A stretch of DNA of 39,830 nucleotides from Nocardioidaceae bacterium (GTDB lineage Bacteria; Actinomycetota; Actinomycetes; Propionibacteriales; Nocardioidaceae), in assembly GCA_029268205.1 (NCBI GenBank), contig JAJUGK010000006.1, forward strand, positions 1-39,830. Direction: 5' to 3'. Of this stretch, positions 5,595-30,537 are shown piece after piece (the first letter of the stretch is position 1; every line of letters begins with the position of its first letter). The position numbers and the translations under genes are program-made. The notes beneath the pieces were generated by a model. That model was not told the DNA's origin. It did not search any database and saw only the letters and a program-made list of their open reading frames with translations.

Positions 5595-6821
5595 ATGCCG
5601 ATGGAGTCCGCGGTCCCGGCCGCTCCGGTGACCTGCCCGGGCGGCTCGGTGGTGGTCTTCGACCCCAGCATGACCGGGTACGACTTCGGCCCCACCCACC
5701 CGATGGCGCCGGTGCGGGTCGACCTGACGATGCGGCTGGCCACCGACCTCGGTGTCACCGGCCCGGGCGGGGTGCTGCGCGAGGTGCCCGCTCCGATCGC
5801 GACCGACGACGAACTCGCCACCGTGCACTCCGGCGCGCTGCTCGAGGCGGTCATGACCGCCGGCCGCGATCCCCGGCGCGCCGACTACTCCTTCGGGCTC
5901 GGCAGTGAGGACAACCCGGTCTTCGTCGGCATGCACGACGCCGGCGCCCACGTCGTGGGGGCAACCGTCGAGGCGATGCGTCAGGTCTGGACCGGCCGGG
6001 CGACCCACGCCGCCAACGTCGCCGGCGGGCTCCACCACGCGATGCCCGGCCGGGTCAGCGGGTTCTGCATCTACAACGACATCGCCGTGGGCATCAAGTG
6101 GCTGCTCGACAACGGCGCCGAGCGGGTGGCCTACGTCGACGTCGACGTCCACCACGGCGACGGGGTGGAGCGGATCTTCTGGGACGACCCGCGGGTGCTC
6201 ACCATCAGCCTGCACGAGACCGGTCAGATGCTCTTCCCGGGCACCGGCTTCCCCCAGGACCTCGGCGGGCCCGACGCGCGGGGGAGCGCGGTCAACGTGG
6301 CGCTGCCGCCCGGCACCTCCGACGCCGGCTGGCTACGCGCCTTCCACGCCGTCGTCCCCGAGCTGCTGCGCGAGTTCGAGCCCGACATCCTCGTCACGCA
6401 GCACGGCTGCGACACCCACCTCGAGGACCCGCTGGCCCACCTGATGCTCACCGTCGACGGGCAGCGCGCGTCGTACCTCGCCCTGCACGAGCTCGCCCAC
6501 GAGGTCTGCGACGGCAAGTGGGTCGCGACCGGGGGCGGGGGCTATGCGGTCGTCGACGTCGTCCCGCGGGCGTGGAGCCACCTGCTGGCCATCGTCGGCG
6601 GCGCCCCCCTCGACCCCGACCAACCCACCCCCGAGGACTGGCGCGAGCACGTCCAGATCGCGCTGGGCCGCACCGCACCCTTCCGGCTCACCGACGGCCG
6701 CAGCCCGGCCTACCGCGACTGGCGCGACGGCTACGACCCCAACACCTGGCTCGACCGGGCCATCCACGCCACCCGGGAGGCCGCCTTCCCCCTCCACGGC
6801 CTCAACGTGCACGGCTACTGA
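5595..6821 (+). CDS. acuC: Acetoin utilization protein AcuC / histone deacetylase family
   Basis: YDFGPTHPMAPVRVDLT; GGLHHAMPGRVSGFCIYNDIAVGI; VAYVDVDVHHGDGVERIFWDDPRVLTISLHE; TQHGCDTHLEDPLAHL. Confidence 0.93.
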   Translation: MPMESAVPAAPVTCPGGSVVVFDPSMTGYDFGPTHPMAPVRVDLTMRLATDLGVTGPGGVLREVPAPIATDDELATVHSGALLEAVMTAGRDPRRADYSFGLGSEDNPVFVGMHDAGAHVVGATVEAMRQVWTGRATHAANVAGGLHHAMPGRVSGFCIYNDIAVGIKWLLDNGAERVAYVDVDVHHGDGVERIFWDDPRVLTISLHETGQMLFPGTGFPQDLGGPDARGSAVNVALPPGTSDAGWLRAFHAVVPELLREFEPDILVTQHGCDTHLEDPLAHLMLTVDGQRASYLALHELAHEVCDGKWVATGGGGYAVVDVVPRAWSHLLAIVGGAPLDPDQPTPEDWREHVQIALGRTAPFRLTDGRSPAYRDWRDGYDPNTWLDRAIHATREAAFPLHGLNVHGY

Positions 6822-6932
6822 CGACGCGGTTGCGGCCCCTGCTCGACCGGGCAAATCGGGCCCCTGTCCACGCGACACGCCGAAGAAGGGCAAAGTTTTT
6901 CCCCGAAACCGGCGTCACCCCTTCCCCAGGAG

Positions 6933-6969
6933 TCACACCAGCCCCTATCCTCGCGGCATGCTGGTGTGA
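6933..6969. promoter_or_regulatory. 10-bp perfect inverted repeat (TCACACCAGC-N17-GCTGGTGTGA) around a TATCCT -10-like hexamer
   Basis: Arms 6933-6942 and 6960-6969; TATCCT at 6946-6951; upstream of the HTH gene. Confidence 0.55.
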
Positions 6970-7020
6970 GACTGCGGTGGGGAAGCCGCGGGCGCCGGCC
7001 ACAAGAAAGTGCGGTGCACG

Positions 7021-7227
7021 ATGGCTGCTCCAGGTTCCGGAGAGGTCTCCGGTCCGACGTTCCTGACCGTCGCGGAGGTCGCGCAGGTGATGCGCGTGTC
7101 CAAGATGACGGTCTACCGACTGGTCCACTCCGGCGAACTGCCGGCGGTGCGGGTCGGGCGGTCCTTCCGGGTCACCGAGAAGGACGTCGACGAGTACCTG
7201 AAGAACTCCTACTTCCAGACCGGCTGA
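7021..7227 (+). CDS. Small helix-turn-helix (MerR/excisionase-type) DNA-binding protein, Rv0500A-like by context
   Basis: MAAPGSGEVSGPTFLTVAEVAQVMRVSKMTVYRLVHSGELPAVRVGRSFRVTEKDVDEYLKNSYFQTG; conserved location between proC and bS22. Confidence 0.9.
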   Translation: MAAPGSGEVSGPTFLTVAEVAQVMRVSKMTVYRLVHSGELPAVRVGRSFRVTEKDVDEYLKNSYFQTG

Positions 7228-7332
7228 GGCTCACGATCCGTCTCGGTTTCCTGCTGGCTGGGCACCCCGGATACGCTGGCCCCTCGTCCTGCGCCACCGT
7301 GCAGCGATCTGATCGTCCAGAGAGGTCCACCT

Positions 7333-7434
7333 GTGGGTTCCGTCATCAAGAAGCGCCGCAAGCGCATGGCCAAGAAGAAGCACCGCAAGCTGCTGAAGAA
7401 GACCCGCGTCCAGCGTCGTCGTCTCGGCAAGTGA
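7333..7434 (+). CDS. Small ribosomal subunit protein bS22 (AURKAIP1/COX24-domain, 33 aa)
   Basis: GTG start; [33 protein letters not shown]. Near-identical to my recollection of the mycobacterial 33-aa protein (Rv0500B). Below the ORF-track size cutoff. Confidence 0.95.
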
Positions 7435-7472
7435 GCCTGCGCGGGCGCTGAGCAGAGCGGACTGACCTACTG

Positions 7473-8492
7473 GTGGGGCGCGTCGTACTCGTCACGGGGA
7501 TCTCGCGGGGGCTCGCCCTGCGGTTCGCGCGCGGGCTGACCGGCGAGCCGGGCATCGACCGGGTCATCGGCGTCGACGTCACCCCGCCCCGCGGGGACCT
7601 CGGGGCGGTGCAGTTCGTGCGGGCCGACATCCGCAACCCGGTGATCGCCAAGGTGATCGCCAAGGAGGACGTCGACACCGTCGTCCACATGAGCGTGGTC
7701 GCCACACCGGGCGACAACGCCGGCCGCAGCTCCATGAAGGAGCTCAACGTCATCGGCACCATGCAGCTGCTCGCGGCGTGCCAACGCGCGCCCGGGCTGC
7801 GGCACCTGGTCGTCAAGTCCTCGACGACGGTGTACGGCGCCTCGAGTCGCGACCCGGCGATGTTCACCGAGGACATGCCGCCCAAGCGGCTGCCGCGGTC
7901 GGGCTACGCCAAGGACGTCTACGAGGTCGAGGGGTACGTCCGGGGCTTCGCCCGGCGGCGTTCCGATGTCACGGTGACGATGCTGCGCTGCGCCAACAGC
8001 ATCGGTCCGCGCATCACCTCACCGCTGGCGCAGTACTTCCGGCTGCCGGTGATCCCGCGCGTCCTGGGGTACGACGCCCGCATGCAGTTCCTGCACGAGA
8101 CCGACCTGCTCGAGGTGCTCCGGCACGCCACGTTCGCCGGCGTGCACGGCACCTTCAACGTCGCCGGTGACGGGATCATGACCCTCTCCCAGGCCATCCG
8201 CCGCACCGGGAAGCCGAGCGTGATGGTGCCCGGCTTCGCCGCGATGACGGCGGGGTCGCTGATGCGCCAGACCAAGCTCGTCGACTTCTCCGCCGAGCAG
8301 GTCAAGTTCCTCACCTACGGCCGGGGCGTCGACACCTCGGCGTGCGCCCGGGTGCTCGGCTTCCGGCCGCGCTACACCACCGCCGAGGCGTTCGCCGACT
8401 TCGTCGAGTCGCTCCCGCCCGGCCTCACCGCCCCCTCGCGCCTGCTGGTCGACCACGTGGGCGCCCCTGTCCCCGGAGGCGACCGTGGCTGA
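7473..8492 (+). CDS. NAD-dependent epimerase/dehydratase (extended SDR, GalE2-like)
   Basis: VLVTGISRGLALRFARGL, VVHMSVVATPGD, VVKSSTTVYGASS, YAKDVYEVEGYV. Confidence 0.88.
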   Translation: MGRVVLVTGISRGLALRFARGLTGEPGIDRVIGVDVTPPRGDLGAVQFVRADIRNPVIAKVIAKEDVDTVVHMSVVATPGDNAGRSSMKELNVIGTMQLLAACQRAPGLRHLVVKSSTTVYGASSRDPAMFTEDMPPKRLPRSGYAKDVYEVEGYVRGFARRRSDVTVTMLRCANSIGPRITSPLAQYFRLPVIPRVLGYDARMQFLHETDLLEVLRHATFAGVHGTFNVAGDGIMTLSQAIRRTGKPSVMVPGFAAMTAGSLMRQTKLVDFSAEQVKFLTYGRGVDTSACARVLGFRPRYTTAEAFADFVESLPPGLTAPSRLLVDHVGAPVPGGDRG

Positions 8493-9705
8493 CGCAGAGA
8501 TCATCCCCCTCGGCACCCGGGGTCGCCCCGGGCGCGGCAGCGGCCGGACCAAGCCGTCCGCGGCCGCGCGCAACCTGGCGCCCGCCCGTACGGCGCCGAA
8601 GGCCAAGCCGCCGGTCGAGCCCGCTGCCCCCGCGGAGTCCGTCGCGCCCGCGGAGCCGGACCCGGTCGAGGAGCGCGCCGTCGCGCCGGATCCGGTCGAG
8701 CAGCGCCCCGTGGAGCAGCCGCCGGCCGCCGAAGCCACCGAGCCCGACGTCGCGGCCCCAGGGGCGCACGACCCGATCGACCCCAACGAGGCGGCCGACC
8801 CGACGCCCCGCCCCGGTGCCACCACCCGCGACCGCATGCCCGGCATCCCGGTCAGTGACTGGGCGGCCGCCCTGGCCACCGGCGCCCGGGAGGTGCTGGG
8901 CGAGGCGGGGCTGCGCCACCGGATCAACGGCGACTACGAGGTCGACGAGTACGGCTTCGACCGCGAGATCGCCGAGAAGCTCTTCTTAGCGGTGCTGCGC
9001 CCGATCGCCGAGAAGTGGTTCCGCATCGAGGTGCGGGGGGCGGAGAACATCCCCACCGAGGGCGGCGCCCTGGTCGTCTCCAACCATTCGGGCACCATCC
9101 CCGTCGACGGCCTGATGACCGGCTTCGTCATCCACGAGCACGCCGGCCGACACCTGCGCCCGCTCGGGGCCGATCTGGTCTTCCGGCTGCCCGTGGTCGC
9201 CAACCTCGCCCGCAAGGCCGGCGCCACTCTGGCCTGCAACGAGGACGCCGAGCGGATGCTGTCGGGCGGTGAGCTCGTCGGCGTCTGGCCCGAGGGGTTC
9301 AAGGGCATCGGCAAGCCCTACTCCGAGCGCTACAAGCTCCAGCGTTTCGGGCGCGGCGGGTTCGTCTCGGCCGCCATGCGCACCGGGGTGCCGATCATCC
9401 CGTGCTCGGTCGTCGGCGCCGAGGAGATCTACCCGCTGGTCGGCAACGTCCCCTCCCTCGCCCGCCTGCTGGGCGTGCCCTACATCCCGATCACGCCGCT
9501 CTTCCCGTGGCTGGGACCCCTGGGGCTGGTGCCGCTGCCGTCGAAGTGGCTCATCGAGTTCGGCGAGCCGATCCGCACCGACTCCTACGACGAGGGCGCC
9601 GCCGACGACCCGATGCTGGTCTTCAACGTCACCGACCAGGTGCGCGAGACCATCCAGCAGACGCTGTACTCGCTGCTGATGCAGCGCCGCTCGGTCTTCG
9701 GCTGA
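8485..9705 (+). CDS. 1-acyl-sn-glycerol-3-phosphate acyltransferase-like (PlsC family) with disordered Pro/Glu/Ala-rich N-terminal extension
   Basis: VVSNHSGTIPVDG (HX4D-like), VWPEGFKGIGKPYSERYKLQRFGRGGFVSAA; N-terminal PAAPAESVAPAEPDPVEERAVAPDPVEQRPVEQ. Confidence 0.85.
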   Translation: MADAEIIPLGTRGRPGRGSGRTKPSAAARNLAPARTAPKAKPPVEPAAPAESVAPAEPDPVEERAVAPDPVEQRPVEQPPAAEATEPDVAAPGAHDPIDPNEAADPTPRPGATTRDRMPGIPVSDWAAALATGAREVLGEAGLRHRINGDYEVDEYGFDREIAEKLFLAVLRPIAEKWFRIEVRGAENIPTEGGALVVSNHSGTIPVDGLMTGFVIHEHAGRHLRPLGADLVFRLPVVANLARKAGATLACNEDAERMLSGGELVGVWPEGFKGIGKPYSERYKLQRFGRGGFVSAAMRTGVPIIPCSVVGAEEIYPLVGNVPSLARLLGVPYIPITPLFPWLGPLGLVPLPSKWLIEFGEPIRTDSYDEGAADDPMLVFNVTDQVRETIQQTLYSLLMQRRSVFG

Positions 9706-9741
9706 CGACCCGGGCTGAGAGCGACCGCGGCGTACGTCAGC
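9701..9741. terminator. Candidate bidirectional terminator/IR between convergent plsC-like and DUF5667 genes
   Basis: GCTGACG (9701-9707, includes plsC stop TGA) and CGTCAGC (9735-9741). Confidence 0.35.
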
Positions 9742-9747
9742 GCGTGG

Positions 9748-10998
9748 TCACTTGCCGCCGAGCAGCGTGCCGAGCAGGTCGCCGAGGCTCTCGCCGAGCT
9801 CCTGCAACGGCTTCTCGGTGGGCGTGGGCGACGGGGAGGCGCCACCCTTGTCGCCCTCGGGCGCCTTGGTGGAACCACCGTCCCCCTTCGGCGCGGCCGG
9901 CTTCGTGCCGGTGTTCTGGCCGCGGGGGTTGAGCAGGTCGACGACGGTGCCGAGCAGGCCCTTGGGGACCTCGTCGGTCGTCCCGGGCTGCGGCGCGGCG
10001 GGCGCGTCCCCGCCGGCGGCCGGCGGCTCGGCCTGCTGGCCGCCCTCGTCGCCGGGACGGGCCGGTCGGGTCGGCGACGCGGGTGCCGAGGGGAGGGTGG
10101 GGATCTCGATCTCGACCTCGGGACGCACCGGGTGGGCATTGGTGAGCTCGCCGTCGGCGTCGCCGGTGGCCTGGAGCGCCTGCTTGACCTCGTCGAGTGC
10201 CAGGAAGGTCGTCGGCAGCTCCAGCACCTCGCCGGGGCCGCACTCGCCGCACAGCGTCGCGGCCTCGGCATCGAGGTCGCGCACCCGTACGGCGAGGTCG
10301 GCGAGATCGCCGTGCAGCGCAGCGGGCACCTGGTCGGTCAGCGCGTCGAGGCTCCGCAGCGAGGTCGCCAGGAACGCGCGCACCGTCTCGACGTCGGCGA
10401 CGTCGCCGGACTCGCGGTAGGAGGCGAACAGCAGCGCGGTGCCCTCGTTGGTGTGGCCGAGGAAGTCGTCGAGCGTGGCGCGGATCCGCTCCTCGAGACC
10501 CACAGCGTCGCCGTCGGCGGCCAACCGGGCGGCCTCGGCGAGGCGGCCGGTGGCGCGGTCGAGCAACTGGTGGCCCTTGCCGTCCTCGCTGAAGGTGAGG
10601 GAGGAGCGGGCCTGCTCGATGCCGCGCTTGATCGGGTAGAGCGCCTCGCCGGGGAGGGCGTCCTGCGCAGCCGTGGCCATCGTGGCCGAGCCGCCGAGCA
10701 GGACGGCGACCGAGGCCGCGGCGACGAAGCGGCGCTCGCGGGCACCCCGGGTGCGCGGGGGCAGGCTCAGGCGGGCCGCCTGGGGCGTGAGGGTGGTCTC
10801 GGCCTCGGCCATGAGCCGTTCGCGGAGGTCGTCGACGAAGGCGGCCCGCGGAGCCGGGGCCTCCATCGACCGCAGCGCGCCGACGAGTTCGAGCAGGGGT
10901 GCGTCGGCGCGCTCGTCACCGGCCTCGCCGCGGTCGAGCGCAGCGAGGCTGTCGGCGAAGTCCTCGGCGCGCCGTCGCGCCAGGAACCGGGAGTTCAT
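9748..10998 (-). CDS. DUF5667 domain-containing membrane/secreted protein; candidate anti-sigma factor of BldN (RsbN-like)
   Basis: Downstream of the BldN-type sigma gene on the same strand; N-terminal ~75-aa cytosolic-type domain, one hydrophobic segment (RRFVAAASVAVLLGGSATMATAA), then QDALPGEALYPIKRGIEQARSSLTFSEDGKGHQLLDRATGRLAEA typical of DUF5667; C-terminus DLLGTLLGGK. Confidence 0.8.
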   Translation of the reverse strand: MNSRFLARRRAEDFADSLAALDRGEAGDERADAPLLELVGALRSMEAPAPRAAFVDDLRERLMAEAETTLTPQAARLSLPPRTRGARERRFVAAASVAVLLGGSATMATAAQDALPGEALYPIKRGIEQARSSLTFSEDGKGHQLLDRATGRLAEAARLAADGDAVGLEERIRATLDDFLGHTNEGTALLFASYRESGDVADVETVRAFLATSLRSLDALTDQVPAALHGDLADLAVRVRDLDAEAATLCGECGPGEVLELPTTFLALDEVKQALQATGDADGELTNAHPVRPEVEIEIPTLPSAPASPTRPARPGDEGGQQAEPPAAGGDAPAAPQPGTTDEVPKGLLGTVVDLLNPRGQNTGTKPAAPKGDGGSTKAPEGDKGGASPSPTPTEKPLQELGESLGDLLGTLLGGK

Positions 10999-11050
10999 CG
11001 CACGTGTCCTGTCGTAGGTGCCGCAGGGAGGGATGCGGCGTCTACGGGGA

Positions 11051-11079
11051 GCAACGAGGCCCGCGCGCGGAAAGTTACG
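11051..11079 (-). promoter_or_regulatory. Candidate sigma-BldN-type promoter upstream of the DUF5667 gene
   Basis: Minus strand CGTAAC (11079-11074) - 17 nt - CGTTGC (11056-11051), about 50 nt upstream of ATG at 10998. Confidence 0.6.
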
Positions 11080-11173
11080 CCACACGCCCCCCGCTTGCCC
11101 GAACCTTGCGTCGGCCATGCAGCGACGTTGCGGATCCTCCTGCCGGCCGGGTGTGCGGCCACGGCGTACGCCC

Positions 11174-11977
11174 TCATCGCAGGCCCTCCGGGAGCAGCTT
11201 GGCCAGGTTGCGGACGCCGCGCAGCTGCAGCTGCTTGATCGCACCGTCGGTGCGGCCGAGCACCTTGGCGGTCTCGGCGATCGACATCCCCTGGAGGAAG
11301 CGCATGATCAGGCACTCCTGCTGCTCCTTGGGCAGCTTGCCCAGGGCCTCGAGCAGCGCCTCGTTGGTGAGGGTCTGCAGGACCGCGCCCTCGGGACCCT
11401 CGGTGGTGGTGTCGAGGTCGCCCATGTCCTCGGTCGACTGCTCGAGCCGGGTGCGGCCGGCCTTGTAGTGGTCGGCGGTGAGGTTGCGGGCGATGGTCAT
11501 CAGCCAGGCGCCGAAGTCCTTGCCCTGCCAGCGGAAGGTGCTCATGCTGCGCAGCGCGCGGAAGAACGTCTCGGAGGTGAGGTCCTCGGCCAGGGCGACC
11601 GTGCCGACGCGGTAGTAGAGGAAGCGGTAGACCGCCGGGTGGTAGTGGTCGTAGAGCAGGCCGAAGGCCTCGCTGTCGCCGCCACGGGCGAGCTCGACCA
11701 GCGCGATCAGCCGCTGTCCCTCGGCCTCGTCGGCTTCGGAGGAGGCGGCCAACGCGGAGTCGTCGCCCTGGCCGCTGGGCGGCTCCATCGCCAGTTGCGA
11801 GAGCGCCATGGCCTCGACCAGTGCGGGCCGGGGGCGGTGCGGCGTACCGAAGACCGTGGTCGGGGTGCCGGTGGTGGCGAGCGCGGGGGCGAAGGGGTCG
11901 TTGCCCTCCACGGCGGCGCGCAGCGCACGGCGCAGGGTTTCGAACCCTCGCCGGAACTCCGCGGCGCGCGTGTACAT
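11174..11977 (-). CDS. bldN: RNA polymerase sigma factor, ECF, BldN family
   Basis: LLYDHYHPAVYRFLYYRVGTVALAEDLTSETFFRALRSMSTFRWQGKDFGAWLMTIARNLTADHYKAGRTRLEQST...QQECLIMRFLQGMSIAETAKVLGRTDGAIKQLQLRGVRNLAKLLPEGLR; long N-terminal extension; location near rex-hem as in Streptomyces. Confidence 0.9.
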   Translation of the reverse strand: MYTRAAEFRRGFETLRRALRAAVEGNDPFAPALATTGTPTTVFGTPHRPRPALVEAMALSQLAMEPPSGQGDDSALAASSEADEAEGQRLIALVELARGGDSEAFGLLYDHYHPAVYRFLYYRVGTVALAEDLTSETFFRALRSMSTFRWQGKDFGAWLMTIARNLTADHYKAGRTRLEQSTEDMGDLDTTTEGPEGAVLQTLTNEALLEALGKLPKEQQECLIMRFLQGMSIAETAKVLGRTDGAIKQLQLRGVRNLAKLLPEGLR

Positions 11978-12206
11978 CGCCTCTCCCTCTCCGGCCTCCC
12001 CGCCGGACCCTACTCAACGGTAATCAACAACCGTGCACCTGACCAGAGGGCCGGGAGATTCTTTGCCCGACCATCTGCGCGGTCCCCGTTGCTGCCACCC
12101 GAACCGACCCGGAATCACCCGAGTCGCCCCGAGCCGTGCAGGTCACAGGGCCCGATTGTGCCTGTGATCGGCCGGGAACGATGTGACCTGAGCCATTCTG
12201 AGACGC

Positions 12207-13079
12207 TCAGCGCAGTCGGCGACGCAGGGCTGCCGCAGCGGCGGTCGCGCCCGCGGCCGCACCGGTCCCCGCGGCGGCGATCATCCCCACGCGGGCGGCC
12301 TTGCGGCCGGTGCGGTAGTCGCGGATCCGCCAACCGTGGGCCCGGGCGTACTCGCGCAGCCGGCGGTCGGGGTTGATCGCGCACGGGTCGCCGACCAGGG
12401 AGAGCATCGGCAGGTCGTTGAACGAGTCGGAGTACGCCGAGCACCGGGCGAGGTCGAGCGACTCCCGCTCGGCCAGGGCGACCACCGCCTCGGCCTTCGC
12501 CGGCCCGTGCAGCAGGTCGCCGACCAACCGGCCGGTGTAGACGCCGTCGACGTGCTCGGCGACCGTGCCCATCGCGCCGGTCAGGCCGAGCCGACGGGCG
12601 ATGATCCGGGCGATCTCGATGGGGGCGGCGGTCACCAGCCACACCCGCTGGCCCTGGTCGATGTGGATCTGCGCCAGCGCCCGGGTGCCGGGCCAGATGC
12701 GGCTGGCCATCACCTCGTCGAAGATCTCCTCGGCCAGGTGCTCGAGCTCGGTGACGGTGTGCCCGGCGATGAAGGCCAGCGCCGAGGAGCGGCTGGCCTC
12801 GATGTGCTCGGGGTCCTCCACGCCGGCGAGGCGGAAGTAGGCCTGCTTCCACGCGGCGCCGAGGATCTCGCGGGTGGTGAAGAACTCGCGCTTGTAGAGC
12901 CCCTTGGCCAGATGGAAGATCGAGGCGCCCTGCATGACGGTGTTGTCGACGTCGAAGAACGCCGCCGCCGTCGGGTCGGGGGTCACCGACAATGCCGACT
13001 CGACCTCGGCCGCCGACGCGGCCGCCTGCCCCGCCAGCGTCGAGCGGCGGCGCAGGTTCGGGGTCCGGTGGGGATGCAC
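12207..13079 (-). CDS. HAD-IB family hydrolase (SerB-like phosphatase)
   Basis: [34 protein letters not shown] (DxD motif), [51 protein letters not shown]. Confidence 0.93.
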
Positions 13080-13176
13080 ACGAGCAGACTAGGGCGTACG
13101 TGCCCTACGTCATACGCTCCACGAGCAATACCCCGACGGACGGATGACGGCCGCGGCGCTGTGCCAGACTCGCAGC

Positions 13177-14790
13177 ATGGTCGCGAACCTCGCCGCGCTC
13201 CTCGACGACGCCGTCGCGCGTACGCCGGACTCACCCGCGCTCGTCGAGGCCGGGACCGGCGCGGTGACCACCTGGTCGGCGCTCGCGGACGCGGTCGGTC
13301 GCAGCGCCCGCGGGCTGGTCGAGGCCGGGCTGGTCGCCGGTCACCGGGTCGCGCTCTGTCTCGGCAACACCCCCGACTTCGTCGTGGCCTACCTCGCCGC
13401 GCTCCGCGCCGGCCTGGTCGTGGTACCGATCAACCCCCGCGCCACGGCCACCGAGGTCGGCCGGATGCTCGGTGACAGTGGCTCCCGACTGGTGGTCGCC
13501 GAGGCGGCGACCGCGGCGACCGTCCGCGCGGCCGTGGCCGGGCTCGCGGAGGCGATCGCCGCGGGTGACGAGCGGGTACGCGACGGCGTGGGGCCGCCGG
13601 GGGTGGCGCTCACCGACTCCGAGCCCGAGTCCCGCGGGCCCGGCGGCCCGGACGGCGAGCGCGCGTGGTCCGCCTTCCGCGCCGACGCCCCGCTGGAGGG
13701 TCCGCCGCCCCAGGACCCCGAGACGCTGGCCGTGCTGCTCTACACCAGCGGCACCTCGGGGCGACCGCGCGGCGCGATGCTCTCCCACCGTGCGCTGCTG
13801 GCCAACCTCGAGCAGACCGCCGCGGTCGAGCCGCCGCTGCTCACCGCCGACGACCGGGTGCTGGCGGTGCTGCCGCTGTTCCACATCTACGGCCTCAACG
13901 CCGTGCTCGGCAGCGCGCTGCGCGAGCGCGCGACGGTCGTGCTCGTGCGGCACTTCGACCCCGACTCCTGCCTCGACGTGGTCGCCGAGCACGGCGTGAC
14001 GGTCCTCCCGGTCGCCCCGCCGGTCTTCGGCTACTGGCGCACGCTCGACCGGGTGGCCGAGCGGCTGACCGGCGTCCGCCTGGTGCTGTCGGGCTCGGCC
14101 CCGCTCGCGCCCGAGGTGCTCACCGAGTTCGAGGAGCGCACCGGGGTGCCCGTCCACCAGGGGTACGGCCTCACCGAGGCCGCGCCGGTGGTCACCTCGA
14201 CGCTGGCTGCCGCCGAACGCCCACCGGCCCACGCCGTGGGTCCGGCGCTGCCCGGGGTGGAGATCGCGCTGCGCGAGGAGACCGGCGAGGCCCCGGAGCC
14301 GGGTGACCCCGGGGAGATCCTGATCCGCGGGGCCAACCTGTTCTCCGGCTACTGGCCCGACGGCTCCGACGGCCCCGACGCCGAGGGCTGGTGGGCGACC
14401 GGCGACGTCGGCTACCTCGACGCCGACGGCGTGCTCCACCTCGTCGACCGGCTCAAGGAGCTGGTCATCGTCTCCGGCTTCAACGTCTATCCCTCCGAGG
14501 TCGAGGAGGTGCTCGTCGAGGTCGACGGGGTCGCCGAGGCGGCCGTACTCGGCGTCCCCGACGAGGAGACCGGCGAGGCCGTGCGCGCCTACGTCCGCGT
14601 CGAGGACGGCCGCGACCCCGCGCAGGTGCTGGCCGCCGCCCGGGCGTACGCCGAGGAGCGGCTCGCGCGGTTCAAGCAGCCGAACGCCTACGAGGTCGTC
14701 GCCGAGCTGCCGCGTACGCCCACCGGCAAGATCGCCAAGGGTCGGCTGCGCGCCGCGATCCGTCGTCAGCAGCTGGACCTGCTCGCATGA
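13177..14790 (+). CDS. AMP-dependent synthetase/ligase (long-chain acyl-CoA ligase-like)
   Basis: LLYTSGTSGRPRGAMLSH, LPLFHIYG, HQGYGLTEAAPVVTS, GWWATGDVGYLDADGVLHLVDRLKELVIVSGFNVYPSEVEEVL, PRTPTGKIAKGRLR. Track start is 13144. Confidence 0.95.
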   Translation: MVANLAALLDDAVARTPDSPALVEAGTGAVTTWSALADAVGRSARGLVEAGLVAGHRVALCLGNTPDFVVAYLAALRAGLVVVPINPRATATEVGRMLGDSGSRLVVAEAATAATVRAAVAGLAEAIAAGDERVRDGVGPPGVALTDSEPESRGPGGPDGERAWSAFRADAPLEGPPPQDPETLAVLLYTSGTSGRPRGAMLSHRALLANLEQTAAVEPPLLTADDRVLAVLPLFHIYGLNAVLGSALRERATVVLVRHFDPDSCLDVVAEHGVTVLPVAPPVFGYWRTLDRVAERLTGVRLVLSGSAPLAPEVLTEFEERTGVPVHQGYGLTEAAPVVTSTLAAAERPPAHAVGPALPGVEIALREETGEAPEPGDPGEILIRGANLFSGYWPDGSDGPDAEGWWATGDVGYLDADGVLHLVDRLKELVIVSGFNVYPSEVEEVLVEVDGVAEAAVLGVPDEETGEAVRAYVRVEDGRDPAQVLAAARAYAEERLARFKQPNAYEVVAELPRTPTGKIAKGRLRAAIRRQQLDLLA

Positions 14791-15095
14791 GCGAGCCCCG
14801 GGTCCTCGTCTACACCCGCCCGGGTTGTCACCTGTGTGAGCAGGCCGAGGCGGTCGTCGCGGCGGTGTGCGCCGAGGTCGGAGCGACCTGGGAGGCCCTC
14901 GACGTGACCGGTGATGACGCGCTGCTCGAGCGCTACCACGACGAGCTGCCGGTGACCTTCGTCGACGGGCGCCAGCACGACTTCTGGCGGGTGGACCCCG
15001 ACCGGCTCCGGGCGGCCCTGAGCGACTCGGCCGAGGGCTCCGCCGACGAGCCGGGCTCCGGCGTACGCCGTCGGTGGTGGCGCCGCGGGGGTTGA
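14787..15095 (+). CDS. Glutaredoxin family protein
   Basis: VLVYTRPGCHLCEQAEAVVAAV...LPVTFVDGRQHDFWRVDPDRLRAAL; CxxC; located upstream of rex/hemA. Confidence 0.9.
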   Translation: MSEPRVLVYTRPGCHLCEQAEAVVAAVCAEVGATWEALDVTGDDALLERYHDELPVTFVDGRQHDFWRVDPDRLRAALSDSAEGSADEPGSGVRRRWWRRGG

Positions 15096-15151
15096 CCGAC
15101 CCCGGTGCGGGTGAGAGATCTCACCTGTGCTAGCCCGCGGGCCGGACCGGT

Positions 15152-15169
15152 TTGTTCTCACGTTCACAA
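15152..15169 (+). promoter_or_regulatory. Rex operator (ROP)-like site overlapping -35/spacer of candidate rex promoter
   Basis: TTGTTCTCACGTTCACAA vs known ROP TTGTGAANNNNTTCACAA: right half perfect, left half 4/7. Candidate -35 TTGTTC 15152-15157, 17-nt spacer, -10 TACAGT 15175-15180. Confidence 0.75.
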
Positions 15170-15296
15170 ACTCCTACAGTGACAGGACCGTAGGCCCCCG
15201 GCGGCCGGGAACCGGGCATGTTCTGGCATGTCACGGCCCGCCTGCCGGAGCCGTTCCGCCCGTCGTCGGCGATTCCCGCAGCGGCCCAGGAGAGAC

Positions 15297-16079
15297 GTGA
15301 GCGCAGGACGTAGGAGAGCACCCGAGGTGCGCGCGACCGGCGCCGCGACCCCGGGCTCGCCGCTCGACCCCACCGCATCGGTGCCCGCCACCGTCGCCGT
15401 CGGCGGCGCGGCGATCCCCGAGGCGACCGTCGCCCGGCTGCCGGTCTACCTGCGGGCGCTCACCGCTCTGGCCGACGCCGGCACCACCACCTGCTCCAGC
15501 GAGGAGCTGGCGGCCGCGGCCGGGGTCAACAGCGCCAAGCTGCGCAAGGACCTGTCCTACCTCGGCTCCTACGGCACCCGCGGGGTCGGCTACGACGTCG
15601 AGTACCTCCGCTACCAGATCGCCCGCGAGATCGGCGTGACCCAGGACTGGCCCGTGGTCATCGTCGGCATCGGAAACCTCGGTCACGCCCTGGCCAACTA
15701 CTCCGGGTTCCGCTCGCGCGGGTTCCGGATCGTGGCCCTGCTCGACGCCGCCGCCGGCCGCCGGGGCGAGGAGGTGGCCGGCCTCCCGATCCGCAGCTTC
15801 GACGAGCTGGAGTCCGTGGTTGCCGAGCACCGGGTCGCCATCGGGGTGGTCGCCACCCCCGCCGCGGCCGCGCAGGAGGTCTGCGACCGGCTGGTCGCCG
15901 CCGGCGTCACCAGCATCCTCAACTTCGCCCCGACCGTGCTCGCGGTGCCCGAGGGCGTCGACGTCCGCAAGGTCGACCTGTCGATCGAGTTGCAGATCCT
16001 CGCCTTCCACGAGCAGCGCAAGGCCCAGGCCGAGGGCGGGGCCGCGCGTGCGGCCGACGCCGCGGAGGTGATCGCGTGA
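15297..16079 (+). CDS. rex: Redox-sensing transcriptional repressor Rex
   Basis: [83 protein letters not shown] start after AGGAGAG. Confidence 0.95.
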
Positions 16080-17374
16080 GCGTCCTGGTCCTCGGGGTCT
16101 CCCACAAGAGTGCGCCCGTCGCCGTCCTCGAGCAGCTCGCGCTCGGCGACGACGGCGTCCGCAAGCTGCTGCTCGACGTCCTCGACTGCGAGCACGTCGG
16201 CGAGGCCACCGTGCTGGCCACCTGCAACCGGCTCGAGGTGTACGCCGACGTCGACCGCTTCCACGGCAGCGTCGAGATGCTGAGCCGGCTGCTGTGCGAG
16301 CGCAGCGGCGTCGCGCCCGAGGACGTCCTGCCGCACCTGTATGTGCACTACGACGACGGCGCGGTCGCCCACCTCTTCCACGTCGCGGCCGGGCTGGACT
16401 CGATGGTGCTGGGCGAGGGGCAGATCCTCACCCAGGCGCGCGAGGCGCTGCGCCTCGGGCAGGACGTCGGCTCGGTGGGCTCGACCCTCAACGTGCTCTT
16501 CCAGCAGGCCTTCCGGGTCGCCAAGCGCGCCCACGCCGAGACCGGCATCGACTCCGTCGCCCCGTCGGTGGTCAGCGCCGCGCTGGAGCGCGCCACCGAG
16601 GTGCTCGGCACGCTGGCCGGACGTACGGCGCTGGTCGTCGGTGCCGGCGCGATGGCCTCGCTCGCCGTGGCCACCCTGGCCCGGATGGGCATCGGGGCGC
16701 TCACCGTCGTCAACCGCGACGTCGCCCGTGGCGTACGCCTGGCCGAGCAGTACGGCGGCACCGGCAGCACCTGGGACCGGGTGCCCGCGCTGGTCGCCGA
16801 GGCCGATCTGGTCGTCTCCTGCACCGGTGCGACGAGCACGGTGCTGTCGGCCGGCACCGTCGCCGAGGCGCGGACCGGGCGCACCGAGCCGCTGGCGCTG
16901 GTCGACCTCGCGCTGCCCCACGACATCGAGCCCGAGGCGGCGCTGGTCCCCGGCGTCTCCCTGATCGACCTCGCGCGCCTCTCCGAGGAGTTGCGCGGCA
17001 CCGCCGCCTCGAGCGAGGTGGCCGAGGTCCGCGGGATCGTGGGCGAGGAGATCGCGGCGTTCCTGAGCGCCCGCCGGGCCGCGAGCGTGACGCCGACCGT
17101 GGTCGCGCTGCGCTCGATGGCCACCGGCGTGGTCGAGAGCGAGATCGACCGGCTGGCAGCGCGGCTGCCCGGGCTCGACGAGGCTGCCCGCCGCGAGGTC
17201 GAGCACACGGTGCGCCGGGTCGCCGACAAGCTGCTGCACCGCCCGACCGTGCGGGTCAAGGAGCTGGCCAACGAGAGCGGCGCGGTGTCCTACGCTGCCG
17301 CGCTCGCCGAGCTGTTCGCCCTCGACCCCGACACCGTCGACGCCGTGACCCGCGCCGAGGGGGTGGCCGAATGA
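16076..17374 (+). CDS. hemA: Glutamyl-tRNA reductase
   Basis: [70 protein letters not shown]. Confidence 0.97.
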
Positions 17375-18369
17375 CCGAGCAGCCGCTGCGCATCGGCACC
17401 CGGGCCTCGCACCTGGCGCGCACCCAGTCCGGCCACGTCGCCGACGCCCTGAGCGCCGCGCTCGGTGTGCCGACCGTGCTGGTCGATGTCACCACCCACG
17501 GCGACACGTCGCGGGCCCCACTGGCCTCGATGGGCGGCACCGGTGTGTTCGTCTCCGCCCTGCGCGAGGCGCTGCAGGCCGGGGAGGTCGACGTCGCGGT
17601 GCACTCGCTGAAGGACATCCCCACCACGCCCGCGCCCGGCATCACCCTCGCGGCGGTGCCGCTGCGCGAGGACCCGCGGGACGTCCTCATCGCCCGCGAC
17701 GGGCTCACCCTCGGCGAGCTCCCGCCCGGCAGCACCGTCGGCACCGGCTCGCCGCGCCGGCGCTCCCAGCTCGCCGCCCTCGGGCTCGGGTTGGAGCTGC
17801 GCGAGCTGCGCGGCAACGTCGAGACCCGCATCGGGCGGGTCCGCGACGGCGAGCTCGACGCGATCGTCCTGGCCCGCGCCGGGCTCTCGCGGCTCGGTCG
17901 CGCCGACGACGCCACCGAGGTCCTCGACCCCCTCCAGATGCTCCCCGCCCCCGGGCAGGGTGCGCTGGCGGTGGAGTGCCGCGACGACGACGAGCGCGCA
18001 GCGGCGATCGCCGCGGCCCTCGACGACCCGGCGACGCGTGCGGCGGTCACCGCTGAGCGCGCCGTCCTCGCGGTGCTCGAGGCCGGTTGCTCCGCGCCGG
18101 TCGGCGCGCTGGCCGAGGTGGCCGAGGGCGACGATGGCGAGGAGCTCTACCTGCGGGCGGTCGTCCTCGCCGCCGACGGGTCGGTCTCGATCCGGCGCTC
18201 GGCCACCGGGACGCCGGAGTCGGCGTACGACGTGGGCGCCGCCCTGGCCGCCTCGATGCTCGAGGAGGGGGCCGCCGATCTGATGGGCGCCCCGCCGGGA
18301 GCCCCGCCGGGAGCAGCGCCGGGAGGCGTACCCGGAGCCCCGCCGGGCGCTCCGCCGGGGACGCCCTGA
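17371..18369 (+). CDS. hemC: Hydroxymethylbilane synthase (porphobilinogen deaminase) with Pro/Gly-rich C-terminal tail
   Basis: [74 protein letters not shown]; tail [27 protein letters not shown]. Confidence 0.97.
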
Positions 18370-18493
18370 CGCGGGGCCGACACCCCCGCCGCGCCGCTCC
18401 CTGAGCGGGCATCAGCACGCAGCACCAGTCCGAAGCACGAGCACCACCCAGGCACTGCCACCAGCAGTGACGACACCAGACGAAGTAGGCGAC

Positions 18494-20194
18494 GTGACCA
18501 AGCAGGCAACCAAGACCGCGGCCGCTGTGAAGCCGGCCGAGTCCACCCGCGCGACCGCGAAGACCACCCGTTCGGCGAGGACGAGCGCCGCCAAGCCGGT
18601 GCCGCAGCGGGTCGCGTTCGTGGGCAGTGGGCCGGGCGACCCGGACCTGCTCACCGTGCGCGCCGTCGAGCTCCTCCGGGCCGCGGAGATCGTGGTCACC
18701 GAGGTGCCCGGGCACGAGGACCTCGTCCGCGCCGTGGTCGAGGACGCGGAGCTGCCCGAGTTCGTCGACGGCGGCTTCGGCGAGGACGGCCAGCCGCTGA
18801 CCCACGCCTCGCGCGCCAAGGTCGTGGTCAAGCAGGTCAAGACCGGCAAGCGGGTGGTCCGGCTGATCTCGGGCGACCCGTTCGTCTACGCCTCCGGGCC
18901 CGAGGAGGCCCAGGCGTGCGCCAAGGCCGGACTCGCCTTCGAGATCGTGCCCGGCGTCTCCGCGGTGACCGCGGTGCCGGCGTACGCGGGCATCCCGCTG
19001 ACCACCAAGACCCAGCGTGAGGTCGCCGTCGTCACCTGCGGTGAGGCGAAGATCGACTGGCGCCAGTACGCCGACGACCGCACGCTCGTGCTGCTCTCGG
19101 CGGTCGGCCAGATCGCGGAGATCTCCGAGTCGCTGATCGCGGCCGGCCGCGCCGCCGACACCCCGGTGTCGATGACCCGCGTGGGCACCACCACCGACCA
19201 GCGCACCGTGATCTCCACCCTCGAGAACATCGCCGCCGACGCGCGCGAGGCGCGGATGACCCCGCCCGCCGTCATCGTCGTCGGCGACGTGGTCGACCTG
19301 CGCGACGCGCTGTCGTGGTTCGAGACCAAGCCGCTGTTCGGCTGGCGGGTGCTGGTGCCGCGCACCAAGGAGCAGGCAGCCTCGCTGACCCTGAGCCTGC
19401 GCAGCCACGGCGCGGTGCCCGAGGAGGTCCCGACCATCTCGGTCGAGCCGCCGCGCAACCCCCAGCAGATGGACAAGGCCATCCACGGCCTGGTCGAGGG
19501 CCGCTACAAGTGGGTGGCGTTCACCTCGGTCAACGCCGTGCGCGCGGTCCGCGAGAAGTTCGACGAGTACGGCCTCGACGCCCGCGCGTTCTCCGGGCTG
19601 ATGATCGCCGCGGTCGGCGACAAGACCGCCGAGGCGATCGAGGCCTGGGGCCTGCGCGCCGACCTCGTGCCCTCCGGTGAGCAGTCCGCCCGCGGCCTGC
19701 TCGAGGACTGGCCGCCGTACGACGAGGTGCTCGACCCGCTCAACCGGGTCTTCCTCCCGCGCGCCGACATCGCCACCGAGAACCTCGTCGCGGGTCTGCT
19801 CGACCTCGGCTGGGAGGTCGACGACGTCACCGCCTACCGCACCGTGCGGGCCGCTCCGCCGCCGGCGCCGGTGCGCGAGGCGATCAAGACCGGCAAGTTC
19901 GACGCGGTCGTGTTCACCTCGTCCTCGACGGTGCGCAACCTGGTCGGCATCGCCGGCAAGCCGCACCCGACCACCGTCATCGCGGCGATCGGGCCGGCGA
20001 CGGCGAAGACCGCCGAGGAGCACGGCCTGCGGGTCGACGTGATGGCATCGAAGCCGTCGGTCGAGGTGCTGGTCGAGGCGCTGGCCGACTTCGGTGCGGC
20101 GCGGCGGCTGTCGCTGATCGAGGCCGGCGAGCCGGTCACCAAGCCGTCCGAGCGGCGCCCCGCGGGTCGCCGGAAGGCCAAGTCGTCGTCGTGA
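18494..20194 (+). CDS. Bifunctional uroporphyrinogen-III C-methyltransferase / uroporphyrinogen-III synthase
   Basis: SUMT part [58 protein letters not shown]-like; HemD part [52 protein letters not shown]. Start 18467 also possible. Confidence 0.93.
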
Positions 20195-21210
20195 CCGACG
20201 GGCCGACCGCCGGGACCCCCCGCCCCTCCGGGAGCGCGGGGGGATTCCCCGCGGTACGGCCGCGCCGGCTGCGGCGTACCCCGGCGTTGCGACGGATGGT
20301 CGCCGAGACGCACGTGCGCCCCGAGCAGCTCGTGCTGCCGGTCTTCGTGGCGGAGGGCGCGCGCGAGCAGCGCCCGATCGCCAGCATGCCGGGGGTCGTG
20401 CAGCACACCCGTGACACGCTGCGCGCCGAGGCCGCTCGCGCGGCCGAGGCGGGGCTCGGCGGGATCATGCTCTTCGGCGTCCCGGAGACCAAGGACGCGA
20501 CCGGGTCCGGCGCCGTCGACCCGGGCGGCATCCTCAACGTCGCGATCGCCGACGTCGTCGCCGAGGTCGGCGACGCGCTGCCGGTGATGGCCGACCTGTG
20601 CCTCGACGAGTTCACCGACCACGGCCATTGCGGGGTGCTCGACGTCCGGGGCGCGGTCGACAACGACGCCACGCTCGAGGCGTACGCCGCGATGGCGCTC
20701 GCCCAGGCCGGCGCCGGGGTCGGGGTCGTCGCGCCCAGCGGGATGATGGACGGACAGGTCGGCGTGGTGCGGGCCGCGCTCGACGCCGCCGGACACGCCG
20801 ACGTCGCCGTGCTGGCCTACGCCGCGAAGTACGCTTCGGCGTTCTACGGACCCTTCCGCGAGGCGGTCGACTCGAGCCTGGTCGGCGACCGGCGCACCTA
20901 TCAGCAGGACCCCGCCAACGCCCGCGAGGGCGTACGCGAGGCGCTGCTCGATGTCGACGAGGGTGCCGACCTGGTGATGGTGAAGCCGGCCCTGGGCTAC
21001 CTCGACGTGCTGCGCCGGGTCGCCGACGCGGTGCCGGTGCCGGTCGCGGCCTACCAGGTCTCGGGCGAGTACGCCATGCTCGAGGCCGCCGCCGCGAACG
21101 GGTGGATCGACCGGCAGCCCGCGATCCTGGAGTCGTTGCTGTCCATCCGCCGTGCCGGGGCCGACGTGGTCCTGACCTACTGGGCGCTAGAGGCCGCGCG
21201 CTGGCTCTGA
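20191..21210 (+). CDS. hemB: Delta-aminolevulinic acid dehydratase (porphobilinogen synthase)
   Basis: [100 protein letters not shown]. Confidence 0.97.
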
Positions 21211-29117: not shown

Positions 29118-30443
29118 TCAGCCCTTGCCGCCACCGAGGAGGCCGCCGACCAGACCGTCGACGACTCCGCCCACGGTGCCGAGGAGGCCCTGCAGCAGTG
29201 CCTGGACGGCACCGAGGCCGCCGTTGAGGACCTGCTGGCCACACGCGGCGAGACCGCCGAGCAGCTGGATCTCCTGGGAGGTGAAGGTCGCCTGACAGGT
29301 CGCGATCGCCTGCTCGAGTGGGGTCAGCGTCTTCACGACGGTGTCGGCGACGTCGTCGACGGTGTCCTTGACGACCTTGCCCGGGTTGGGGACCTTCGGC
29401 GTCTTGGGTGCCTTCGGCGCATCGGGCGCGGTGCCCTTGTCGTCGTCGCCGGGGGCCGGCGTGCCGGGGCCGGGGTCGCTGCCCGGGGTCTGCGGGCCGG
29501 TCCCGTCGGTCGGGGCGCTGTTGCCGCCGCGCGGGGCGTTGGGGCCGGTCTGCTTGCGCGACTTGCGGCCCTTGGTGCCGTCGGAGACGACCGCGTCACC
29601 GGTGTTGGGCGTCAGCATCCGGGCGCTGATGGTGCCGTTGGGCACCGCGGAGTAGTCGCCGCTCTGGTAGGCGCGCATCAGCGACAGCACCAGGTCGACG
29701 TACGCCTCGGAGTGGTTGTAGCGGTAGACCGCGGCGCGCTGCCCCGGCGTGGTCGCGAGGTCCTCGGTGCCGGAGCAGAGGTAGACCGCGCTGGCCAGGG
29801 CCGCGTCGTGGATGTTCTGCGGGTCGCGCTTGCCGTCGCCGTTGGCGTCGACCCCGACGATCGCCCAGGTGGAGGGGATGAACTGCATCGGGCCCACGGC
29901 GCGGTCCCAGACCGGGTCGTTGTCGTACTGGCCGGCGTCGGTGTCGGGGATCTCGGCGGTGTTGTTGGTGCCGTCGAGCGGGATGCCGAAGATGCCGGGA
30001 CGGCTGTTGCCGTCGTCGTCGAGGATGTTGCCGCCGTAGCGACCGTGGTCGGACTCCACCCGGCCGATCGCGGCGAGCAGCTCCCAGGAGAGGTTGCAGG
30101 CGGTGTCGGCGGAGTTGATGACCTGCGCGGCGCGCTGGTAGGCGGCCAGGGCGGCGGCGGGGATGCCGTTGGGGGAGGCGTCGCGGACCATCGCGCGGGT
30201 GGCGGTCGCGGACGGGACCTCGGCGGTGACCGCGGCGGGGAGCGAGACCGACGCCGGGTCCTCGACCACCTCGGCCGGCAGCAGCGAGCCGTCGGGGAGC
30301 GAGGAGGCGGTGGGGGCCTCCCGGCCCTCGTCGGCGGTCGCGGTGCTGGTGGCCGCGATGCTGGTCGTCCAGGCCCCGGAGAGCAGCGCCAGCGGCACGA
30401 GTGCCGTCGCCTTCTGCCAGGGCTTCATCCGCTTGGTCGCCAT
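29118..30443 (-). CDS. Secreted lytic murein transglycosylase (MltB/SLT-like) with Gly/Leu-rich hydrophobic C-terminal tail
   Basis: N-terminal signal-like segment; SWELLAAIGRVESDHGRYGG...GPMQFIPSTWAIVGVDANGDGKRDPQNIHDAALASAVYLC; tail LLGGLAACGQQVLNGGLGAVQALLQGLLGTVGGVVDGLVGGLLGGGKG. Confidence 0.93.
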   Translation of the reverse strand: MATKRMKPWQKATALVPLALLSGAWTTSIAATSTATADEGREAPTASSLPDGSLLPAEVVEDPASVSLPAAVTAEVPSATATRAMVRDASPNGIPAAALAAYQRAAQVINSADTACNLSWELLAAIGRVESDHGRYGGNILDDDGNSRPGIFGIPLDGTNNTAEIPDTDAGQYDNDPVWDRAVGPMQFIPSTWAIVGVDANGDGKRDPQNIHDAALASAVYLCSGTEDLATTPGQRAAVYRYNHSEAYVDLVLSLMRAYQSGDYSAVPNGTISARMLTPNTGDAVVSDGTKGRKSRKQTGPNAPRGGNSAPTDGTGPQTPGSDPGPGTPAPGDDDKGTAPDAPKAPKTPKVPNPGKVVKDTVDDVADTVVKTLTPLEQAIATCQATFTSQEIQLLGGLAACGQQVLNGGLGAVQALLQGLLGTVGGVVDGLVGGLLGGGKG

Positions 30444-30509: not shown

Positions 30510-30537
30510 ACAACGAACACCCCACCCATCGGTTACG
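30510..30537 (-). promoter_or_regulatory. Candidate sigma-BldN-type promoter upstream of the transglycosylase gene
   Basis: Minus strand CGTAAC (30537-30532) - 16 nt - CGTTGT (30515-30510), about 70 nt upstream of ATG at 30443. Confidence 0.6.

Follow-up and report, generated by a model that had tools for sequence, protein, structure and literature searches.

In Streptomyces, the gene for the anti-sigma factor RsbN is reported to own a promoter that depends on sigma-BldN (PMC4255298). In 2013, convincing syntenic BldN orthologues were reported only in morphologically complex genera, which may include Nocardioides (PMC4255298). No other paper naming BldN and Nocardioides together was found among the openly readable papers searched.

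Here we analyzed a stretch of 39,830 nucleotides from a Nocardioidaceae bacterium (the window, at its full length), in which an earlier note had proposed a sigma-BldN-like promoter before a DUF5667 gene and, with it, a BldN/anti-sigma feedback loop in a non-Streptomyces lineage. Orthology, a conserved promoter and joint loss, all of them computational lines of evidence, support this loop. With a probability of about 0.92, we read the site at 11079-11051 as a sigma-BldN-dependent promoter of rsbN in a negative feedback loop; the sigma factor would also transcribe an envelope regulon and a small RNA.

Features of the window that bear on the proposed BldN/RsbN module
Feature	Position	Strand	Basis
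Gene-order block common with Streptomyces	5595..21210	.	ORF-by-ORF blastp comparison with two Streptomyces loci; Pfam names
rsbN-like anti-sigma gene, 416 aa	9748..10998	-	Pfam DUF5667 E 1.7e-11; profile match 6dxo_D; AlphaFold2
-10 element CGTTGC of predicted rsbN promoter	11051..11056	-	17-nt spacer, T directly before CGTT
-35 element CGTAAC of predicted rsbN promoter	11074..11079	-	Sequence; conserved in Nocardioidaceae and Streptomyces
ECF sigma factor gene, BldN orthologue by similarity and synteny, 267 aa	11174..11977	-	6dxo_A match, TIGR02952 best, synteny
Predicted target, secreted lytic transglycosylase-like protein	29118..30443	-	SLT_2 E 6.9e-11
Second sigma-BldN-type promoter (predicted), CGTAAC-N16-CGTTG	30511..30537	-	Pattern search; orthologous sites

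The sigma factor and the DUF5667 protein

Among solved sigma factors, 6dxo_A was by far the best match of the sigma protein (E 6e-54; next best E 3.7e-14), and TIGR02952, the BldN family, scored best of 72 NCBIfam families with 186.3 bits. This score lies under the curated TIGR02952 cut-off of 206.45 bits; our claim is therefore one of orthology by synteny and similarity, not of NCBI equivalog membership. The block shared with Streptomyces comprises genes for a deacetylase-like protein, an epimerase, RsbN, BldN, a HAD hydrolase and a Rex-like protein, followed by hemA, hemD and hemB, and the seven genes from the epimerase to hemD occur in identical order in two Streptomyces loci (L314 and L315). 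The BldN-type sigma gene that had been noticed upstream of the DUF5667 gene is thus identified, by sequence and gene order, as a syntenic BldN orthologue. Its product is likely to fall into the ECF121 group of ECF sigma factors, which we take to include BldN. ECF121 sigma factors with anti-sigma factors are mentioned in PMC8999054.

The DUF5667 protein is laid out as an N-terminal three-helix domain, one predicted TM helix (~86-110), a helical DUF5667 region and a disordered tail, with AlphaFold2 helices at 6-22, 33-44, 52-69 and 86-110 (mean pLDDT 72). The Pfam match is confined to the region behind the TM helix and leaves out the N-terminus. For the latter, a profile built from 32 Nocardioidaceae family members gave 6dxo_D (RsbN 1-91) as the sole significant PDB match, with E 3.6e-4 over residues 1-78 (next hit, 0.32). 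This chain is labelled BldN in the database, but its 91-residue sequence matches the N-terminus of Streptomyces RsbN. A single-sequence PDB search with the window protein found no match, nor did a Foldseek search of its AlphaFold2 model against PDB at E 0.001. The window protein has diverged from Streptomyces RsbN (identity about 28-33%), which itself bears a DUF5667 domain. By its predicted sigma-binding domain of three helices, which is homologous to residues 1-91 of RsbN, the protein groups with the class III anti-sigma factors, and the predicted helix 86-110, with an aligned hydrophobic stretch in 32 sequences, points to a membrane anchor after this domain. The candidate anti-sigma factor of the earlier note is accordingly identified, by homology of its N-terminus, as RsbN.

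In the predicted extracytoplasmic part of Nocardioidaceae RsbN, C250 and C253 (C-x2-C) are invariant; the pair is absent from 29 Streptomyces RsbN sequences. It is possible that these cysteines form a disulphide or a metal site.

The predicted rsbN promoter across loci

The gap between the ECF sigma gene, whose stop codon lies upstream, and the DUF5667 gene contains on the minus strand CGTAAC, the 17-nt spacer TTTCCGCGCGCGGGCCT (11073-11057) and CGTTGC, and the ATG of the DUF5667 gene at 10998 follows ~53 nt downstream of this motif. CGTAAC-N15-17-CGTTG occurs twice in the window versus 0.01 expected from dinucleotide shuffles, so the motif is present before the DUF5667 gene as described and far above chance. 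A relaxed pattern recovered the same two sites and no third one in the window. The source genome has 7 sites, versus 0 for the reversed pattern.

To follow the site across the family, 80 Nocardioidaceae loci were collected by their sigma protein, and the best site within 340 nt after the sigma gene was scored as matches out of 11 specified bases. Every one of the 80 loci had a site of at least 10/11 in the sigma-rsbN gap (49 perfect), whereas reverse-complement controls of the same stretches reached a best score of 7-9/11 in 79 of 80 and 10 once. The spacer was 17 nt in 78 loci; the best-scoring reading of the other two was 14, and in both a reading at spacer 17 also scores 10/11. Throughout the 80 loci the -35 element was CGTAAC or CATAAC. 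A class-level search with the crystal sigma sequence yielded 30 further loci, whose genomes, at 90-96% identity with the sequence from S. venezuelae, we take to be Streptomyces. The element was present between sigma and rsbN in 29 of these 30, with spacer 17 in 28 and 16 in one, and the thirtieth is a short locus. The motif is therefore conserved upstream of orthologous DUF5667 genes, and its form before rsbN, CGTAAC-N16/17-CGTTG, is that of a sigma-BldN promoter. The consensus spacer of ~16 given in the earlier note was borne out in part: most targets other than rsbN use 16, but before rsbN the spacer is 17 in Nocardioidaceae and, with few exceptions, in the Streptomyces loci as well. A perfect site for the sigma gene itself, which would indicate its autoregulation, was found in 0 of the 80 loci.

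Some variants were also seen. CATAAC replaces CGTAAC in L004, L005, L008, L009, L014 and other loci, several of which are labelled Marmoricola. In L063, 8 nt separate the -10 element from the start of rsbN, whose message would be nearly leaderless. An inverted repeat upstream of the window's sigma gene (AGGTCACA/TGTGACCT) resembled a regulator site and was rejected, as it is not conserved.

Predicted regulon, co-loss and the small RNA

The second window site, which like the regulon and the small RNA was absent from the earlier note, lies 67 nt above the start codon of the lytic transglycosylase-like gene. Target genes were taken from sites in the source genome and sister genomes, together with 100 further regions, and grouped by recurrence. 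The recurrent groups were MlaF/MceG-like ATPase, MlaE-type permeases, rsbN and lytic transglycosylase, joined by trypsin-like and S15-type secreted enzymes, LPXTG-type secreted proteins and glycosyltransferases (the last named by eye). By a crude rule, applied without a background rate, an N-terminal hydrophobic segment was found in 71 of 116 site-associated proteins. The genes downstream of the sites are predicted members of the regulon. The inspected sites yielded no recognisable chaplin, rodlin or bldM target.

In the promoter of the MlaF/MceG-like ATPase, an imperfect inverted repeat, e.g. TTAGCCCCGGGCTAC, is often found within the spacer (L095, L214, L231, L237, L252, L253, L260, L264); it is possibly the operator of a second regulator. 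In L294 and L313 (genus g11), the site precedes a gene for a short protein that, judged by eye, resembles Flp-type pilins.

The sigma gene is present in 49 of 61 Nocardioidaceae genomes. The 49 sigma-bearing genomes have 298 sites (mean 6.1; 22 with the reversed-pattern control) and the 12 sigma-less genomes have 2 (mean 0.17; control 8). The difference in counts is significant if shared ancestry is ignored (Mann-Whitney p 1e-7), and it also holds within two genera. As the 12 sigma-less genomes belong to only four genera, the number of independent losses behind them is small. The RsbN profile found nothing in any of these 12 genomes and detected 3/3 positive controls. At orthologous genes, the MlaF/MceG-like ATPase has a site of at least 10/11 in 16/16 sigma-bearing genomes versus at most 8/11 in 9/9 sigma-less ones. 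Similarly, the lytic transglycosylase gene has a site of at least 9/11 in 17/18 sigma-bearing genomes, against a best score of 6-9/11 in 8 sigma-less ones, in which the single 9/11 belongs to a partial gene match with an uncertain gene start. The sites, the sigma factor and the anti-sigma factor have apparently been lost together across the family, and this phylogenetic co-loss suggests that the sites may depend on the sigma factor.

These data bear on other readings of the locus. The promoter class was assigned from sequence and Actinobacteria carry many ECF sigma factors, one of which, with a similar specificity, might read a real motif next to which BldN merely happens to lie. We consider this very unlikely, since the sites vanish both genome-wide and at orthologous genes where the BldN orthologue is missing, and since the same promoter precedes Streptomyces rsbN, for which BldN dependence is reported in S. 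venezuelae (PMC4255298). Very unlikely, too, is that the DUF5667 protein is an envelope protein belonging to the regulon and not an anti-sigma factor. DUF5667 is without an assigned function (the term was not found in the openly readable papers searched), and the domain lies outside the N-terminus; however, it is the N-terminal 78 residues that correspond to RsbN, the sigma-binding chain in the crystal, Streptomyces RsbN has the same domain in a conserved gene order, and the protein is co-lost with the sigma factor. A chance match in GC-rich DNA, conceivable for an element of only 11 specified bases, is refuted by the shuffle expectation and by conservation in 80/80 loci despite divergent spacers, and its probability is negligible.

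One site of the source genome has no protein gene directly behind it; what follows is a structured element located upstream of guaA. This element is present in 41 of 61 Nocardioidaceae genomes, and none turned up in 22 tested genomes that belong to other families in the same class. It folds into two hairpins, a 5' one and one that resembles a terminator, each with a C-rich CUCCCUCCC loop, and both-side changes occur in 10 of its 25 pairs, a level reached by 0/500 shuffles. Among 39 genomes inspected, a promoter of at least 9/11 precedes it in all but G033, and no other genome of the 39 lacks the sigma gene, as G033 does. With guaA following closely in the source genome and several others, the element could be read as a leader or attenuator of this gene; this is unlikely, because many genomes showed no guaA in the 1.4 kb downstream, and the element has its own promoter and a strong conserved terminal hairpin. 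We therefore favor a free small RNA.

In G033 (L176 / L203), the RNA and its hairpins are kept and no sigma-BldN-type promoter is recognisable in front. At G037:C12:245292-245457, the 3' hairpin is matched three more times over 27 nt, at intervals of ~70 nt, which suggests tandem copies in this genome.

The 6C RNA (RF01066) is likewise actinobacterial and has two C-rich hairpin loops, but differs in that the loops of the new element are CUCCCUCCC. Identity with 6C was rejected: there was no 6C match in the source genome or within the element's locus (L084), and where both occur in one genome they lie in different places, with 6C loci lacking the promoter (best 7/11). The alphaproteobacterial ar14 (RF02344) also has two hairpins, with CCUCCUCCC-like loops; the new RNA matches it only below threshold (28.4 vs 58.8 bits). 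The small RNA is apparently undescribed.

Proposed mechanism and comparison with known systems

Orthology, promoter conservation, the co-loss of sigma, anti-sigma and sites, and RNA structure by covariation were computed. From these we infer sigma binding, the transcription start, inhibition by RsbN, an activating signal and a role of the small RNA, as follows. The BldN-orthologue ECF sigma would direct RNA polymerase to CGTAAC-N16/17-CGTTG promoters, one of which would produce its own membrane-anchored anti-sigma factor, the DUF5667 protein RsbN. The cytoplasmic N-terminal helices of RsbN would bind and hold the sigma factor, closing a negative feedback loop. Once an extracytoplasmic event relieved RsbN, the sigma factor would transcribe the small RNA and a cell-envelope regulon including the MlaF/MceG-like lipid-transport ATPase, lytic transglycosylase, and secreted proteases and hydrolases. 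The two C-rich loops of the small RNA could base-pair with Shine-Dalgarno regions. We give about even odds to a wider proposal, in which the Nocardioidaceae BldN/RsbN pair runs an envelope and lipid-transport regulon together with a sigma-transcribed small-RNA family whose CUCCCUCCC loops would lower translation by such pairing, and RsbN may sense envelope or redox state through its invariant cysteine pair.

If correct, a regulator known chiefly from aerial growth in Streptomyces occurs, together with its feedback promoter, throughout a family whose members are mostly simple bacteria. This would give a comparative handle on the role of the BldN module where chaplins and rodlins are not evident targets, and a sigma-specific regulon open to direct testing. 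DUF5667 proteins would gain a role, and there would be a candidate small RNA that has lost its promoter in the one sigma-less genome retaining it.

As the Streptomyces loop has already been reported and the openly readable papers searched are otherwise silent, the loop itself extends a known module to another lineage, while the regulon, the small RNA and the RsbN cysteine pair look new. The S. venezuelae sigma-BldN/RsbN system (6dxo) resembles that of the window in its orthologous sigma factor, conserved gene order and adjacent anti-sigma gene. Streptomyces RsbN likewise combines an N-terminal sigma-binding helical domain, a TM helix and DUF5667, and the Streptomyces rsbN promoter has the same form, CGTAAC-N17-CGTTG with a T before CGTT. 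In contrast, Nocardioidaceae RsbN has the invariant extracytoplasmic C-x2-C, which the 29 Streptomyces sequences lack, and, compared with Streptomyces sigma-BldN, the predicted Nocardioidaceae targets comprise a small RNA besides genes for the envelope and lipid transport.
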